Of a stretch of DNA of 52,614 nucleotides, positions 6,498 through 28,088 are shown one piece after another. The stretch is from an uncultured Bacteroidales bacterium (GTDB lineage Bacteria > Bacteroidota > Bacteroidia > Bacteroidales > F082). The position numbers and the translations under genes are program-made. The DNA is taken from positions 1 through 52,614 of the forward strand of contig CAJOIS010000031.1 in NCBI GenBank assembly GCA_905234645.1, read 5' to 3'. Below the pieces are notes generated by a model. That model did no database searches. It had not been told where the DNA came from and saw nothing but the letters and a program-made list of their open reading frames with translations. Each line of letters opens with the position of its first letter. Positions within the stretch are counted from its first letter, which is position 1.

Positions 6498-7697
6498 ATG
6501 AAGATATTCGTCCTCCTGCCCCGCATTCCCTATCCGCTGGAAAAAGGCGACAAGTTGCGGGCTTTCAACCAGATAAAGCAACTCTCAAAGCACAATGAGA
6601 TTATTCTTTGTGCCTTAAATGACGACCGGAAGGTCAGCGAACAAGACGCTTTTCGTGCCTTACAGCCCTACTGTCAGTCCATCAGTTTCATCAAAATCAC
6701 GAAACCTCAGATTCTTTTAGGCCTCGTCCGTGCCTTCCTTAAAGGCTTGCCTATGCAATGCGGCTACTTCTACAACCGCAAGGCGGTCAAAAAAATCGAC
6801 GCCCTGATTGCCAAGCACAAGCCCGACATGCTCTTCGGACAACTGCTCCGCGTGGCTGAATACATCCGACATAAAGACCTTCCGAAAGCCATTGATTATC
6901 AAGATATCTTCTCCTATGGAATGAAACGCCGTGCCGACATCGCTTCGTTTGTCACACGACCCGTTTACAACATGGAATACCGTCGCCTGTGCCGCTACGA
7001 GGCCGCCATCTTCGACGACTTCGACGTGCGCACCATCATCAGCGAACCCGACAGGGCGTTGTTCCCCCACAAGAAACGCGACGAAATCCTCATCGTCCCC
7101 AATGGCGTGGACCACGAGAAATACCACCCCATGGACTGCGAGAAGCGGTACGACCTTGTCTTCACGGGCAACATGAGCTACCCGCCCAATGTAAACGCCG
7201 TTGAATACCTGGCCTACGAAATCCTGCCCATCGTTTGGAAGACCCTGCCCGACGTGAAGATGTACATCGCTGGCGCCACCCCCGACCCTAAGGTGAAGAA
7301 AGCCGCCTCGGATAAAATCATCGTCAGCGGCTGGCTCGACGACATCCGCGATGCCTACGCACAAAGCCGCGTCTTCATCGCACCAATGCGCATCGGTACA
7401 GGCCTGCAAAACAAGCTGCTTGAGGCCATGTCAATGCGTCTTCCTGCCGTCACCTCGCCCCTTGCCAACGCATCATTGGGTGCCAAACCCGACGAGGAAA
7501 TCCTGGTTGGCAAAGATGCCGAAGAAATGGCGCAACACATCATCACCCTCCTCACCGAAAAGGAAAAGGCGGAACAAATCGCCCAGGCGGGATACGATTT
7601 CACAAACCGCGTGTATGATTGGGGGAAGGCAACGGAAATTTTGGAGGCCGCTATGACGGCCATTGCAGGGGCGAACCCGCGTGTTCGCCCTGAATAA
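6498..7697 (+). CDS. Glycosyltransferase, GT4-like, second of two (Stp1-type)
   Basis: Predicted 399-residue sugar transferase. It opens MKIFVLLPRIPYPLEKGDK, characteristic of the sugar-transferase group often linked to exopolysaccharide export; the C-terminal half has VFTGNMSYPPNVNAV, then APMRIGTGLQNKLLEAMSM with the donor-binding glutamate, and AVTSPLANA. ATG 6498 is preferred over an upstream in-frame ATG at 6447 because a promoter box lies between them. It resembles the preceding glycosyltransferase in layout but is not a close duplicate. The final ten residues (AGANPRVRPE) and stop are encoded by or abut a GTAGGGGCGGAC-type palindrome, so the C-terminus is probably an acquired tail. Confidence 0.83.
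   Translation: MKIFVLLPRIPYPLEKGDKLRAFNQIKQLSKHNEIILCALNDDRKVSEQDAFRALQPYCQSISFIKITKPQILLGLVRAFLKGLPMQCGYFYNRKAVKKIDALIAKHKPDMLFGQLLRVAEYIRHKDLPKAIDYQDIFSYGMKRRADIASFVTRPVYNMEYRRLCRYEAAIFDDFDVRTIISEPDRALFPHKKRDEILIVPNGVDHEKYHPMDCEKRYDLVFTGNMSYPPNVNAVEYLAYEILPIVWKTLPDVKMYIAGATPDPKVKKAASDKIIVSGWLDDIRDAYAQSRVFIAPMRIGTGLQNKLLEAMSMRLPAVTSPLANASLGAKPDEEILVGKDAEEMAQHIITLLTEKEKAEQIAQAGYDFTNRVYDWGKATEILEAAMTAIAGANPRVRPE
7665..7694. repeat. GTAGGGGCGGAC-type palindrome forming the 3' end of a coding region
   Basis: GGGGCGAACCCGCGTGTTCG-type copy of the family at 686-764, with GGCGAAC pairing GTTCGCC-like arms. It encodes the last residues of the upstream glycosyltransferase. Confidence 0.75.
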
Positions 7698-7713
7698 ACG
7701 AACAAACAACCAT

Positions 7714-7773
7714 TGGAAACGCATAGATCCCGTGCCATCGCACAACCAGCCGCAGGGATGACATGCGTTTCCA
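7714..7773 (-). repeat. Variable-stem hairpin element, copy 1
   Basis: The outer stem TGGAAACGCAT pairs with ATGCGTTTCCA; inside it are the conserved parts of this family, AGATCCC on one side and GGGATGAC on the other. Read on the minus strand it has the order CAT-GTC-ATCCC, apical loop, GGGAT-CT-ATG. Related copies are at 9499-9576, 9591-9657 and 28030-28088, with unrelated outer stems. Confidence 0.85.
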
Positions 7774-7800
7774 TAAACAACGAAAACAACATATAACAAT

Positions 7801-9480
7801 ATGGCACAACCAGACGATAAAAAAATCATCTTCTCGATGGTAGGCGTGAGCAAGATCATCCCGCCGTCGCGACAAATTTTGAAAGACATCTATCTCTCCT
7901 TCTTCTATGGCGCAAAAATCGGCATCATCGGCCTCAACGGAGCGGGCAAGTCCACCCTACTGCGCATCATTGCAGGCAAGGAGAAATCCTATAACGGCGA
8001 AGTGGTCTTCTCGCCCGGCTATTCAGTTGGCATGCTCGACCAGGAGCCGCAGCTCGACGACAACAAAACGGTGAAGCAAGTGGTAGAAGAAGGCGTGCAG
8101 GAGATCGTCGACATCCTGAAGGAATACGAGGAGATCAACAACAAATTCGCTGAGCCTGACGCTGACTTCGACAAGCTCATTGCTCGTCAGGGCGAGCTGA
8201 CCGAGCTCATTGAGCAACACGACGCCTGGGAACTCGACAGCAAGCTGGAACGCGCCATGGACGCCCTCAACTGTCCCGACGGTGACACGCCCGTGCGCAA
8301 CCTCTCGGGAGGAGAACGCCGCCGTGTGGCCCTTTGTCGTCTACTGTTGCAAGAGCCTGATATCCTGCTCCTCGACGAGCCCACCAACCACCTCGATGCC
8401 GAGAGCATCCAGTGGCTGGAGAGCCATCTGCAGCAATACAAGGGCACCGTCATCGCCGTCACCCACGATCGTTACTTCCTCGATCATGTGGCCGGCTGGA
8501 TCCTCGAACTCGACCGCGGTGAAGGCATCCCGTGGAAGGGCAACTACTCGTCGTGGCTCGACCAGAAGACCGCCCGCCTCGCCATGGAAGAGAAGACCGA
8601 GAGCAAGCGTCGCAAGACCCTCGAACGTGAGCTGGAATGGGTGCGCATGGCGCCTAAGGCCCGTCATGCCAAGGGCAAGGCCCGTCTGGAGTCGTATGAG
8701 AAGATGCTCAACGAAGACGTGAAAGAAAAGGAAGAAAAACTCGAGATCTATATCCCCAACGGCGACCGTCTCGGTGCCAAAGTCATCGAAGCGCACGACG
8801 TCACCAAGGCCTACGGCGACAAACTTCTGTTTGAAAACCTCAACTTCAGCCTGCCACAAGGCGGCATCGTGGGTGTCATCGGTCCCAACGGCGCAGGTAA
8901 GACCACGCTGTTCCGCCTCATCATGGGCTTAGAGAAACCAGACTCCGGCACCTTCGAAGTCGGCGAGACCGTGAAAATCGGCTATGTCGACCAGCAGCAT
9001 GCCGACATCGACCCCGAAAAGACCGTCTGGGAAGTCATTAGCGGCGGCAACGAACTCATCCAACTGGGCAAGCGAAGCATGAACTCGCGCGCCTATGTGT
9101 CGCGTTTCAACTTCGGCGGCAACGACCAGCAGAAAAAGGCCGGCGTACTGTCGGGCGGTGAGCGCAACCGTATGCATCTCGCCTTGACCTTAAAGCAGGA
9201 AGCCAACGTGCTGCTTTTGGACGAACCCACCAACGACATCGACGTGAACACGCTCCGCGCCTTGGAAGAAGGTTTGGAGAACTTCGCAGGCTGCGCCGTC
9301 ATCATCAGCCACGACCGTTGGTTCCTCGATCGCGTAGCCACCCACATCCTCGCCTTCGAGGGCAACTCGCAGGTCTATTTCTTCGAGGGCAGCTACTCGG
9401 AATACGAAGAAAACAAGATGAAGCGCTTGGGCAACGTGGAGCCGAAACGATTTAGGTACAAGAAGTTGAAAGTTGATTAA
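7801..9480 (+). CDS. ettA: Energy-dependent translational throttle protein EttA (ABC-F)
   Basis: ABC-F ATPase that binds the ribosomal E site and gates entry into elongation according to the ATP/ADP ratio. The 559-residue length is that of EttA. Two nucleotide-binding domains are complete: Walker A GLNGAGKST, signature LSGGERRRVAL and Walker B ILLLDEPTNHLD in the first; GPNGAGKTT, LSGGERNRMHL and VLLLDEPTNDID in the second. The linker has the KARHAKGKARLESYEK segment typical of the P-site tRNA interaction motif. There is no membrane domain. The start is the first ATG with the usual short lead into IIFSMVGVSK. Flanked by hairpin elements on both sides, so it is probably transcribed alone. Confidence 0.95.
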   Translation: MAQPDDKKIIFSMVGVSKIIPPSRQILKDIYLSFFYGAKIGIIGLNGAGKSTLLRIIAGKEKSYNGEVVFSPGYSVGMLDQEPQLDDNKTVKQVVEEGVQEIVDILKEYEEINNKFAEPDADFDKLIARQGELTELIEQHDAWELDSKLERAMDALNCPDGDTPVRNLSGGERRRVALCRLLLQEPDILLLDEPTNHLDAESIQWLESHLQQYKGTVIAVTHDRYFLDHVAGWILELDRGEGIPWKGNYSSWLDQKTARLAMEEKTESKRRKTLERELEWVRMAPKARHAKGKARLESYEKMLNEDVKEKEEKLEIYIPNGDRLGAKVIEAHDVTKAYGDKLLFENLNFSLPQGGIVGVIGPNGAGKTTLFRLIMGLEKPDSGTFEVGETVKIGYVDQQHADIDPEKTVWEVISGGNELIQLGKRSMNSRAYVSRFNFGGNDQQKKAGVLSGGERNRMHLALTLKQEANVLLLDEPTNDIDVNTLRALEEGLENFAGCAVIISHDRWFLDRVATHILAFEGNSQVYFFEGSYSEYEENKMKRLGNVEPKRFRYKKLKVD

Positions 9481-9498
9481 CCTGCTGCGTCAAAGCGA

Positions 9499-9576
9499 GC
9501 CGTCCATGTCATTGCTGCGCAGGTATGTGCGTTAGCATGGAAATCGAAGATTCGACGTAGTCAATCTATGGACGGC
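9499..9576 (+). repeat. Variable-stem hairpin element, copy 2, carrying a nested insertion
   Basis: Outer stem GCCGTCCAT (9499-9507) pairs with ATGGACGGC (9568-9576). The conserved GTCATT and apical GCGCAGG..TGTGCG parts follow the left stem. Before the right stem a 26-base stretch (9540-9565, GAAATCGAAGATTC core) interrupts the expected GGGATCTATG; nearly the same stretch occurs at 37389-37414. Confidence 0.8.
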
Positions 9577-9590
9577 GGCATATATAAGAC

Positions 9591-9657
9591 GGCTTCAGAA
9601 AGCATAGATTCCGACCTCCCCACATTCCAGCGTTGGAATGACATGTTTTCTGAAGCC
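9591..9657 (-). repeat. Variable-stem hairpin element, copy 3
   Basis: Outer stem GGCTTCAGAAA pairs with TTTCTGAAGCC, enclosing CATAGATTCC and GGAATGACATG. Same inner parts as the other copies but a different outer stem. It is oriented opposite to copy 2, which lies 14 bases away. Together they fill most of the 288-base gap between ettA and the DUF805 gene. Confidence 0.85.
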
Positions 9658-9731
9658 TGCTTTATCTACAAAAAGAAAGACCCGACTAATAAGCCTGCAA
9701 AACAAAATTATGTTTTCTAAAAATAACTTCC

Positions 9732-9739
9732 TAAATTTG
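9732..9739 (+). promoter_or_regulatory. -7 promoter box for DUF805 gene
   Basis: TAAATTTG fits TAnnTTTG and is 29 bases before the ATG at 9769, in an otherwise AT-rich stretch. Confidence 0.6.
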
Positions 9740-9768
9740 CAGCGTATTAACCCTAAAAAACTACCACT

Positions 9769-10284
9769 ATGAACTTCGGAGAAGCAATCAAAAGCGTGTT
9801 TTCAAAGTATGCAACTTTCTCGGGACGTGCACGCCGTTCTGAGTTCTGGTATTTCTTTCTGCTCAACTTTCTCGTCTGCTTCGTGTTAGGGCTTATCCCC
9901 GTCCTTTCCTGGGTGTCGGGATTGTGGTCCCTGGCCATACTGATTCCTTTCTTGGCCGTCACCGTACGCCGTTTTCACGACATCGGCAAGAGCGGATGGT
10001 ATTATCTCGTACCTGCCATTCCGGCATTGGCCTACGTGGGTTATCTGGTCTATTATGTGCTGAAAATCATGAAGGAAATCGGAGGCAGCTTCTCTGACAC
10101 AGATGCCATCATGCAACATATCATGGACAACCCTTCAGGCATCATTGCCATCGTCGTCCTTGGACTTCTGTCCCTTATTACGACGATTATTTGGATTGTC
10201 TGGATGGCTAAAGACAGCCAACCTGGCGAAAACAAATGGGGTCCCAATCCCAAAGAAAACCAATCCCAAGGAAATGCCTGGTGA
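9769..10284 (+). CDS. DUF805 family inner-membrane protein
   Basis: Membrane protein of 171 residues and unknown function. The family hallmark is the N-terminal ATFSGRARRSEFWYF segment (residues 15-29), followed by hydrophobic helices near 31-60, 77-97 and 122-147 and the RRFHDIGKSGWYYL segment between helices. The C-terminal tail (GENKWGPNPKE) is also typical. It has its own promoter and terminator, so it is monocistronic. Confidence 0.85.
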   Translation: MNFGEAIKSVFSKYATFSGRARRSEFWYFFLLNFLVCFVLGLIPVLSWVSGLWSLAILIPFLAVTVRRFHDIGKSGWYYLVPAIPALAYVGYLVYYVLKIMKEIGGSFSDTDAIMQHIMDNPSGIIAIVVLGLLSLITTIIWIVWMAKDSQPGENKWGPNPKENQSQGNAW

Positions 10285-28029: not shown

Positions 28030-28088
28030 AAATAGCCCATGTCATCCCAGCGCAGGCCGTGTGCAGGCATGGGATCTATGGGCTATTT
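28030..28088 (+). repeat. Variable-stem hairpin element, copy 4
   Basis: Outer stem AAATAGCCCAT (28030-28040) pairs with ATGGGCTATTT (28078-28088); inner parts are GTC-ATCCC and GGGAT-CT, with apical GCGCAGG..GTGTGC. It lies between convergent adk and the acyltransferase gene and touches the stop codon of the latter; it probably terminates both. Confidence 0.88.

Follow-up and report, generated by a model that had tools for sequence, protein, structure and literature searches.

A genus-specific, REP-like hairpin repeat of uncultured Bacteroidales with a near-invariant core and locally matched outer arms

Introduction

The CGTC-tagged REP superfamily of Di Nocera, De Gregorio and Rocco (2013, PMC3733652) includes dRS3 of Neisseria and RPE-4 and RPE-6 of Rickettsia conorii. 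In the parts of that survey on which we draw, CGTC repeats are described from five phyla including Bacteroidetes, with TGTC variants, stems that start with A and T, CCA tails and intragenic copies, RPE-4 and RPE-6 among them. The same parts state that no dedicated transposase is known and leave as questions by what means CGTC-tagged REPs move and if new ones still form. RAYT/GTAG REPs, as presented in the portions of PMC8266576 cited here, are hairpins that an HUH transposase recognises in the form of single-stranded DNA. A separate proposal, in the cited part of PMC8794818, is that template switching creates and maintains perfect RNA stems. Here we analyse a 52,614-nucleotide stretch of DNA from an uncultured Bacteroidales bacterium, referred to throughout as the window, and compare a hairpin repeat that it carries with these systems.

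Results

The window corresponds to contig C31 in a draft genome of 2.59 Mb (77 contigs, 83.7% complete). A first-pass annotation made from its letters had proposed four hairpins with a conserved inner loop and locus-specific outer stems, and both the sequence and a covariance model confirm four elements at these positions:

7714..7773, tag strand minus: element 1, between two plus-strand open reading frames
7714-7721 and 7766-7773, plus-strand letters: outer arms of element 1, TGGAAACG and CGTTTCCA
7722-7724 and 7725-7726, plus-strand letters: CAT and AG, left side of element 1
7727-7731 and 7755-7759, plus-strand letters: inner stem of element 1, ATCCC and GGGAT
7760-7762 and 7763-7765, plus-strand letters: GAC and ATG, right side of element 1
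9499..9576, plus strand: element 2, with arms GCCGTC (9499-9504) and GACGGC (9571-9576)
9505-9510 and 9566-9570, plus strand: junctions of element 2, CAT-GTC and CT-ATG
9591..9657, minus strand: element 3, with arms GGCTTCAGAAAG (9591-9602) and TTTTCTGAAGCC (9646-9657)
9608-9612 and 9635-9639: inner stem of element 3, ATTCC and GGAAT
28030..28088, plus strand: element 4, between convergent open reading frames
28030-28037 and 28081-28088: outer arms of element 4, AAATAGCC and GGCTATTT
28038-28043, 28044-28048, 28071-28075 and 28076-28080: core of element 4, CAT-GTC, ATCCC, GGGAT and CT-ATG

The order on the tag strand is outer arm, CAT, GTC, ATYCC, a G-rich loop, GGRAT, CT, ATG and the matching outer arm. 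Searched against the window at E up to 1, the covariance model, which was trained on 44 elements including one of the window's four (L020), returns exactly four matches, namely 7716-7771(-), 28032-28086(+), 9597-9651(-) and 9499-9576(+) with E from 1.8e-16 to 3.5e-11, and these are the four elements proposed. The exact pattern CATGTCATYCCN{8,35}GGRATCTATG has three matches in the window, missing 9499-9576 with its broken core, and none in 100 shuffles; the absence of matches from shuffles and reversed-pattern controls rejects a chance origin. Element 2 reads ATTGC in place of ATYCC and holds about 20 extra, partly palindromic nucleotides (9543-9562, ATCGAAGATTCGACGTAGTC) within its inner stem. 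Elements 2 and 3 lie tail to tail, as a pair, with a plus-strand open reading frame on either side. The outer arms match, as had been proposed, but not perfectly throughout, as those of element 3 carry a single A.C mismatch (tag strand) adjoining CAT. The asymmetric internal loop is likewise conserved, GTC/CT occurring in 261 of 262 cores retrieved with any 3-by-2 loop allowed in that frame, but on the tag strand RNAalifold pairs the G of GTC with the T of CT and so reduces the proposed 3-by-2 loop to 2-by-1.

A partly palindromic stretch like that at 9543-9562 (TGACTACGTCGAA... on one strand) is also present in L330 and L305, and five distinct sequences among the loci collected fit a loose pattern for it. 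At gathering score the only Rfam matches in the window are three tRNAs, and a looser search of 7600-9800 gives none above that score (best sub-threshold E 0.23 and 0.24); with no match for the elements at gathering score, a known RNA family is rejected.

The four elements are copies of a repeat specific to one genus of gut Bacteroidales. Their own genome contains 21 matches to a near-exact pattern and 41 copies of the relaxed core GTCATYCC...GGRATCT, each with a reversed control of 0, and 36 copies by the covariance model at E up to 0.001 with strict filters. Across the genus, the repeat occurs in 39 of 99 genomes (controls 0), at least two copies being present in 31 of the 99 and 67 in the richest; a smaller sample that counts the own genome gives 15 of 36. 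In a sample of the order that spans 132 genera in all, the other 148 genomes give no match to the covariance model, and the exact pattern is missing from each of 24 genomes examined from other genera. Named records with the repeat, among the matches listed, are mainly MAGs of uncultured Bacteroidales or Bacteroidia, some of whose titles give ruminant sources, and a few of the listed pattern matches fall in other phyla. The pooled elements analysed below are a non-random sample of the matches listed plus loci from in-gene queries (15 in-gene copies in the strand test); 17 other-taxon loci, which match the pattern and have no outer stem, are excluded from later counts, and part of them serves as a control.

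Outside the core, the arms are partly common to loci and partly locus-specific, and they are matched either way. Counted from the internal loop, positions 4-9 of the stem are Watson-Crick paired in 79-91% of the 253 elements pooled, versus 27-38% with partners shuffled, and positions 10-15 in 49-61% versus 29-36%, with little excess past position 15 and stem spans that cluster at about 9 and about 15 bp. When each orthologous group is represented by one random copy, giving 164 independent loci, positions 4-9 are 90% paired in the long class and in the short class alike, and swapping right arms within a class lowers this to 42%; a few fixed arm classes are therefore rejected, though recurrent arms exist. 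The first-pass description of the outer stems as unrelated goes too far: there are 77 distinct 6-nt arms among the 164 loci, but three arms, AGCAGC, GCCTCC and AGAAAG, account for 48 of the 164, a recurrence which shows that the arm is in part inherited.

Alignment A1 draws 44 sequences from 44 of 102 groups, limited to stems of at least 9 bp and CAT/TAT junctions, and has 154 cells changed on both sides versus 52 in shuffles. Two of five covariation measures on A1 failed to exceed shuffles, namely pairs with a double change (8 versus 7.3) and pair types (25 versus 23.5); its figure of 98.4% paired cells is inflated because A1 was chosen for good stems. The control set of 23 CGTC-like palindromes from other taxa, retrieved with the same pattern, has no matched flanks past the two pattern-fixed positions. 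A core that is nearly constant between arms that differ yet nearly always match, even inside conserved genes, suggests that a single-stranded DNA shape is preserved.

Comparison of species at one site used 36 groups with both flanks common to the copies. At positions 3-9, double changes kept pairing in 202 cases and lost it in 9, single changes left a standard pair in 76 and broke it in 66, and at control positions beyond the stem (18-27) pairing survived 49 double changes and was lost in 244, all in counts where pairs within a group are non-independent and a few groups contain tandem copies of one locus. Individual cases include AATTCCGCCTTACAT/ATGTGAGGCGGAATT in L006 against AATCCTGTCTCTCAT/GTGAGGGACAGGATT in L096, with flanks 88.5% identical, and three Watson-Crick swaps between L046 and L048, with flanks 92.1% identical. 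The orthologue of the window's 9499-9657 pair in L228 has other matched arms, one with a G.G mismatch, and L210, whose upstream gene is 92.6% identical, has neither element. Hot-spot re-insertion could mimic part of this compensation.

Double changes this numerous relative to single ones would also fit mutation alone, with template switching (quasipalindrome correction) copying arm onto arm and no selection on the fold, and the part of PMC8794818 cited above proposes such switching as the origin and upkeep of perfect stems. Mutation alone does not predict the asymmetric loop kept in 261 of 262 cores, the unmatched flanks of the 23 similar palindromes of other phyla or the tag-strand excess of G.T over A.C reported below, and we regard it as rather unlikely.

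In three other genomes (L216, L222 and L231) the gap that follows the ABC-F-like gene, orthologous to window 9480-9768, carries a different palindromic unit of about 150 nt, GATTCCCTTCGGGAATGGA ... TCCATTCCCGAAGGGAATC, with a GC-rich middle.

The mismatches in the arms indicate which strand folds. On the tag strand, positions 3-9 of the 164 loci contain 33 G.T and 8 A.C mismatches (p 1e-4; 30-40 versus 7-10 over 200 choices of representative), where swapped partners would give 123 and 115. An alternative count of 55 versus 16 favours G.T because its windows were set with G.T scored as a pair, and the fixed-position count is preferred. G.T on one strand is A.C on the other, so it is the tag strand whose fold is preserved. 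Inner-stem mismatches are opposite in kind, with three C.A and no G.T. Transcription reads the opposite strand at 47 loci, which lie either within genes or between co-directional ones; there G.T again exceeds A.C (13 versus 3; p 0.02, small counts), and the 39 loci in sense settings have 3 and 1. Because the excess holds where the tag strand is antisense, mRNA structure does not explain the arms. Copies between co-directional genes are 30 sense and 23 antisense, and the 33 loci inside genes comprise 9 in the same orientation as the gene and 24 opposite; mRNA-level selection as sole cause is rejected on this near-even orientation and the antisense G.T excess.

The first-pass annotation had suggested selection on an RNA or cruciform with compensatory change. 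Covariation between loci and between species largely upholds this, but the fold is that of the tag strand, and such a signature speaks for single-stranded DNA (or a separate RNA from the tag strand) rather than for mRNA or a strand-symmetric cruciform. A functional RNA, with the tag strand transcribed either within an mRNA or separately as a small RNA and with selection on its fold for stability or protein binding, would share the G.T tolerance and covariation typical of RNA stems. Against it stand the near-even orientation between genes, the tag-antisense placement of 24 of 33 in-gene loci, the persistence of G.T over A.C in antisense settings and the lack of an Rfam family at gathering score for the window's elements, which together make such an RNA quite unlikely in our estimate.

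The 164 loci include 32 between convergent genes, 17 in divergent gaps and 33 inside genes. Crude frame calls for the 36 own-genome copies examined with their flanks place 10 well inside a long open reading frame, 13 in convergent gaps, 8 in co-directional and 2 in divergent positions, with 3 unclear or at a contig edge. Intrinsic transcription terminators with a common core would suit the convergent placements and the TTTT that follows element 4, and they conflict with the copies in divergent gaps and inside genes and with the rarity of T runs, TTTT lying within 10 nt past the stem at 8 of 119 non-coding loci per strand against a background of 3.9%. With a T run on the transcribed strand at only 3 of 53 co-directional loci, we give terminators almost no credence and reject them.

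Inside open runs of at least 800 nt, 60 of 62 deduplicated copies have a core length of 1 mod 3, a result partly forced by the open-frame requirement, and 58 use one codon phase; copies elsewhere have core lengths of 1, 2 and 0 mod 3 in 81, 76 and 13 cases. Pfam assigns ten host proteins to GH3, EPSP synthase, DNA topoisomerase, an Mfd-like helicase with a CarD/RID domain, pseudouridine synthase, radical SAM, glycosyltransferase, Mur ligase, a PrmC-type methyltransferase and GH20, and own-genome in-frame copies include those in the aroA and mfd-like genes. Several inserts lie between domains; in the PrmC-type protein, for example, PrmC_N spans residues 20-87, the insert 117-138, and the methyltransferase domain starts at 146. 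Judged from sequence, the interrupted frames appear to stay open and the predicted proteins match Pfam families, several on both sides of the insert.

Of 245 copies, 100 belong to neighbour pairs no more than 120 nt apart, arranged tail-to-tail in 35 cases, head-to-head in 15 and in tandem in 3. Tail-to-tail gaps are mostly 41-43 and 51-56 nt, and a 27-nt gap recurs in 7 head-to-head pairs. One element is nested in the loop of another at L274, L278, L281, L285 and L371; the regular expression GTCATACC...GGTATCT has 0 matches, nested GTCATACC forms being visible with right halves that do not fit.

Filled and empty gene sites were surveyed by eye, thirty loci per site, in place of a list of 41 elements with an 'empty' orthologue, many of which were filled with other hairpins, variant cores or repeats. 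At the radical SAM gene 16 loci carry the element or a nested form of it, 13 lack it and 1 is unanchored, and aroA has 21 with hairpin inserts of the element's kind (some nested or degenerate, with unrelated arms) and 9 without. The GH3 site is occupied by the element in 13 loci, by GTATCC...GGATAC-type hairpins in 7 and by a GAGACG...CGTCTC palindrome in 7, and 3 are without; the Mfd-like site has the element in 9, other palindromes in 6, short tandem repeats or nothing comparable in 8 and another arrangement in 1, with 6 unanchored. The same gene positions are thus hit by several palindrome families. A target-site duplication, sought by eye in filled and empty pairs, gave no single length.

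An inverted-repeat test on 27 sites, with single-base shuffles as reference, found a hairpin beyond chance in 0 of 7 tested empty sites of aroA, marginally in 1 of 8 of radical SAM, and as a 6-10 bp hairpin in 7 of 10 tested GH3 sites lacking both the element and the GAGACG palindrome (two GAGACG sites were set apart). The aroA and radical SAM sites, empty of hairpins or nearly so, show that the element can do without a hairpin already in place. The other first-pass suggestion, insertion into the loop of such hairpins, is not general, although seven of the GH3 sites tested do hold them. Such insertion into hairpins or palindromic targets, with outer arms that belong to the site rather than to the element, draws on these GTATCC...GGATAC-type GH3 hairpins and on REPs located inside palindromes in the cited part of PMC3733652. 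The GH3 hairpin could, however, be the remnant of a lost element, and the Mfd arms ATCGCC/GGCGAT are not seen in loci with short tandem repeats only; with the aroA and radical SAM results, we consider this origin very unlikely.

In the GH3 copies L329, L333 and L334 the left-arm GTC matches a GAC codon on the right, the others pairing over GGC/GCC only. This suggests that arms can become re-matched to their flanks, and it is also a point in favour of mutation alone.

Other palindrome families occupy the same positions of the GH3 and Mfd-like genes in other species (L338-L347, L308-L321), namely GAGACG...CGTCTC, GGCTGTCACA...TGTGGCAGCC and CGTCATYGCGAGG...CGAAGCRATCC with 56, 10 and 17 distinct copies (overlapping loci). 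Short tandem repeats of TTGACAG or TTGAGAG type lie in the same linker of the Mfd-like gene in several species (L309-L320).

RAYT was examined at three levels: a family search in 60 genomes, nine gene neighbourhoods, and presence or absence across the 99 genus genomes. Of these 99, 19 have a match to RAYT-like genes, 15 of the 31 with at least two copies of the repeat and 4 of the 68 with none or one (Fisher p 2e-6, with relatedness uncorrected and draft genomes incomplete). A RAYT-like match at E 1e-20 is missing from 16 of the 31 element-bearing genomes, which are drafts. The own genome (G000) has a pair of such genes (L200/L201):

C16:2576-3286, minus strand: RAYT-like Y1 transposase gene
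C38:2566-3225, minus strand: RAYT-like Y1 transposase gene

The two are 75% identical over most of their length, and neither has the hairpin on both sides. The nine Y1-gene neighbourhoods read include none with the repeat on both sides and two with one copy nearby. RAYT as mobiliser remains a correlation, and no enzyme is tied to the repeat.

Discussion

The element resembles CGTC REPs, as the cited parts of PMC3733652 describe them, in its A/T first stem pairs, many intergenic and some intragenic copies, and dimers, and its TGTC head and three-nucleotide tail may correspond to theirs. The likeness is partial. The T of TGTC pairs with the tail A and the G can pair with T, whereas the CGTC-REP motif (CGTC, TGTC or CCTC) is unpaired; the A-T and T-A first stem pairs, present in 44 of 44 sequences of A1, are part of the search pattern; and in the CTA tail CT is fixed by the pattern and A is paired. 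The survey gives CGTC REPs a stem of 8-9 bp, a loop of 4-5 nt, a short and mostly CCA tail and predominantly head-to-head dimers. The element, by contrast, has a 5-bp inner stem under the pattern used, a loop of more than 20 nt and a CTA tail, its consensus fold leaving 23 unpaired columns between the stem halves, and the stem and loop sizes of CGTC REPs do not apply to it. Tail-to-tail pairs are the commoner (35 versus 15), and an outer stem that differs by locus is kept paired. Because only some defining features are present and the stem and loop sizes fail, we describe the element as one that behaves like a CGTC REP and probably descends from one, rather than as a member of the superfamily.

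Other described repeats share single traits. Like the Rickettsia RPEs, going by the description in the cited part of PMC3733652, the element forms palindromic inserts in frame inside genes that stay open, but it belongs to a different phylum and differs, as far as that description goes, in its locus-specific, compensated arms. Like the RAYT/GTAG REPs and REPtrons of PMC8266576, in the portions cited, it is an imperfect hairpin tagged at one end, in a genus that has RAYT-like genes; its tag is GTC rather than GTAG, and none of nine Y1 neighbourhoods is flanked on both sides by the repeat. REPs within palindromes, such as the CGTC-1 dimers of H. neapolitanus and GTAG-15 of A. variabilis, also have inverted sequence flanking the unit or dimer, with one consensus per genome in the cited account of PMC3733652, whereas the flanks here differ by locus. 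Within the open-licence PMC literature, the scope of our search, we found no description of a locus-specific compensated outer stem.

Somewhat on the probable side, in our judgement, is a REP-type element that is kept as a single-stranded hairpin of the tag strand, with arms re-matched locally, putatively as the substrate of an HUH/Y1-type enzyme or of another hairpin binder. A near-invariant core of (T)GTC head, ATYCC/GGRAT inner stem and CT(A) tail sits in a varying, paired stem of about 9 or about 15 bp; the mismatches tolerated are those suited to the tag strand; and gene sites filled here are empty in other species of the genus. The copies, on this reading those of a CGTC/TGTC-type REP, lie between genes and, in frame, inside genes. 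What matters would be how the tag strand folds as single-stranded DNA, its simplest role being that of a substrate for a RAYT-like HUH/Y1 transposase or another binder of single-stranded hairpins. Compensatory substitution would re-match the arms at each locus, probably helped by replication template switching, which would copy one arm onto the other and may draw in flanking host sequence.

A more radical version, on the unlikely side, is an element that writes its own arms, the folded tag strand priming or templating an inverted copy of the flank, host sequence included, at or after insertion, and selection then keeping the hairpin. If true, this REP would have its recognition stem made at the target site instead of carrying it along.

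The repeat is a real and unusual variant of REP/RPE-type DNA, for which the case is strong on anatomy and evolution. Genomes of the genus hold as many as 67 copies, at sites that are filled in some species and empty in others; together with the compensated stems and the strand signature, this makes recognition of a single-stranded DNA fold directly testable. The repeat would also exemplify, in nature, stem compensation maintained in DNA rather than in RNA, and the repeated tolerance of in-frame palindromes at the same positions of conserved proteins.
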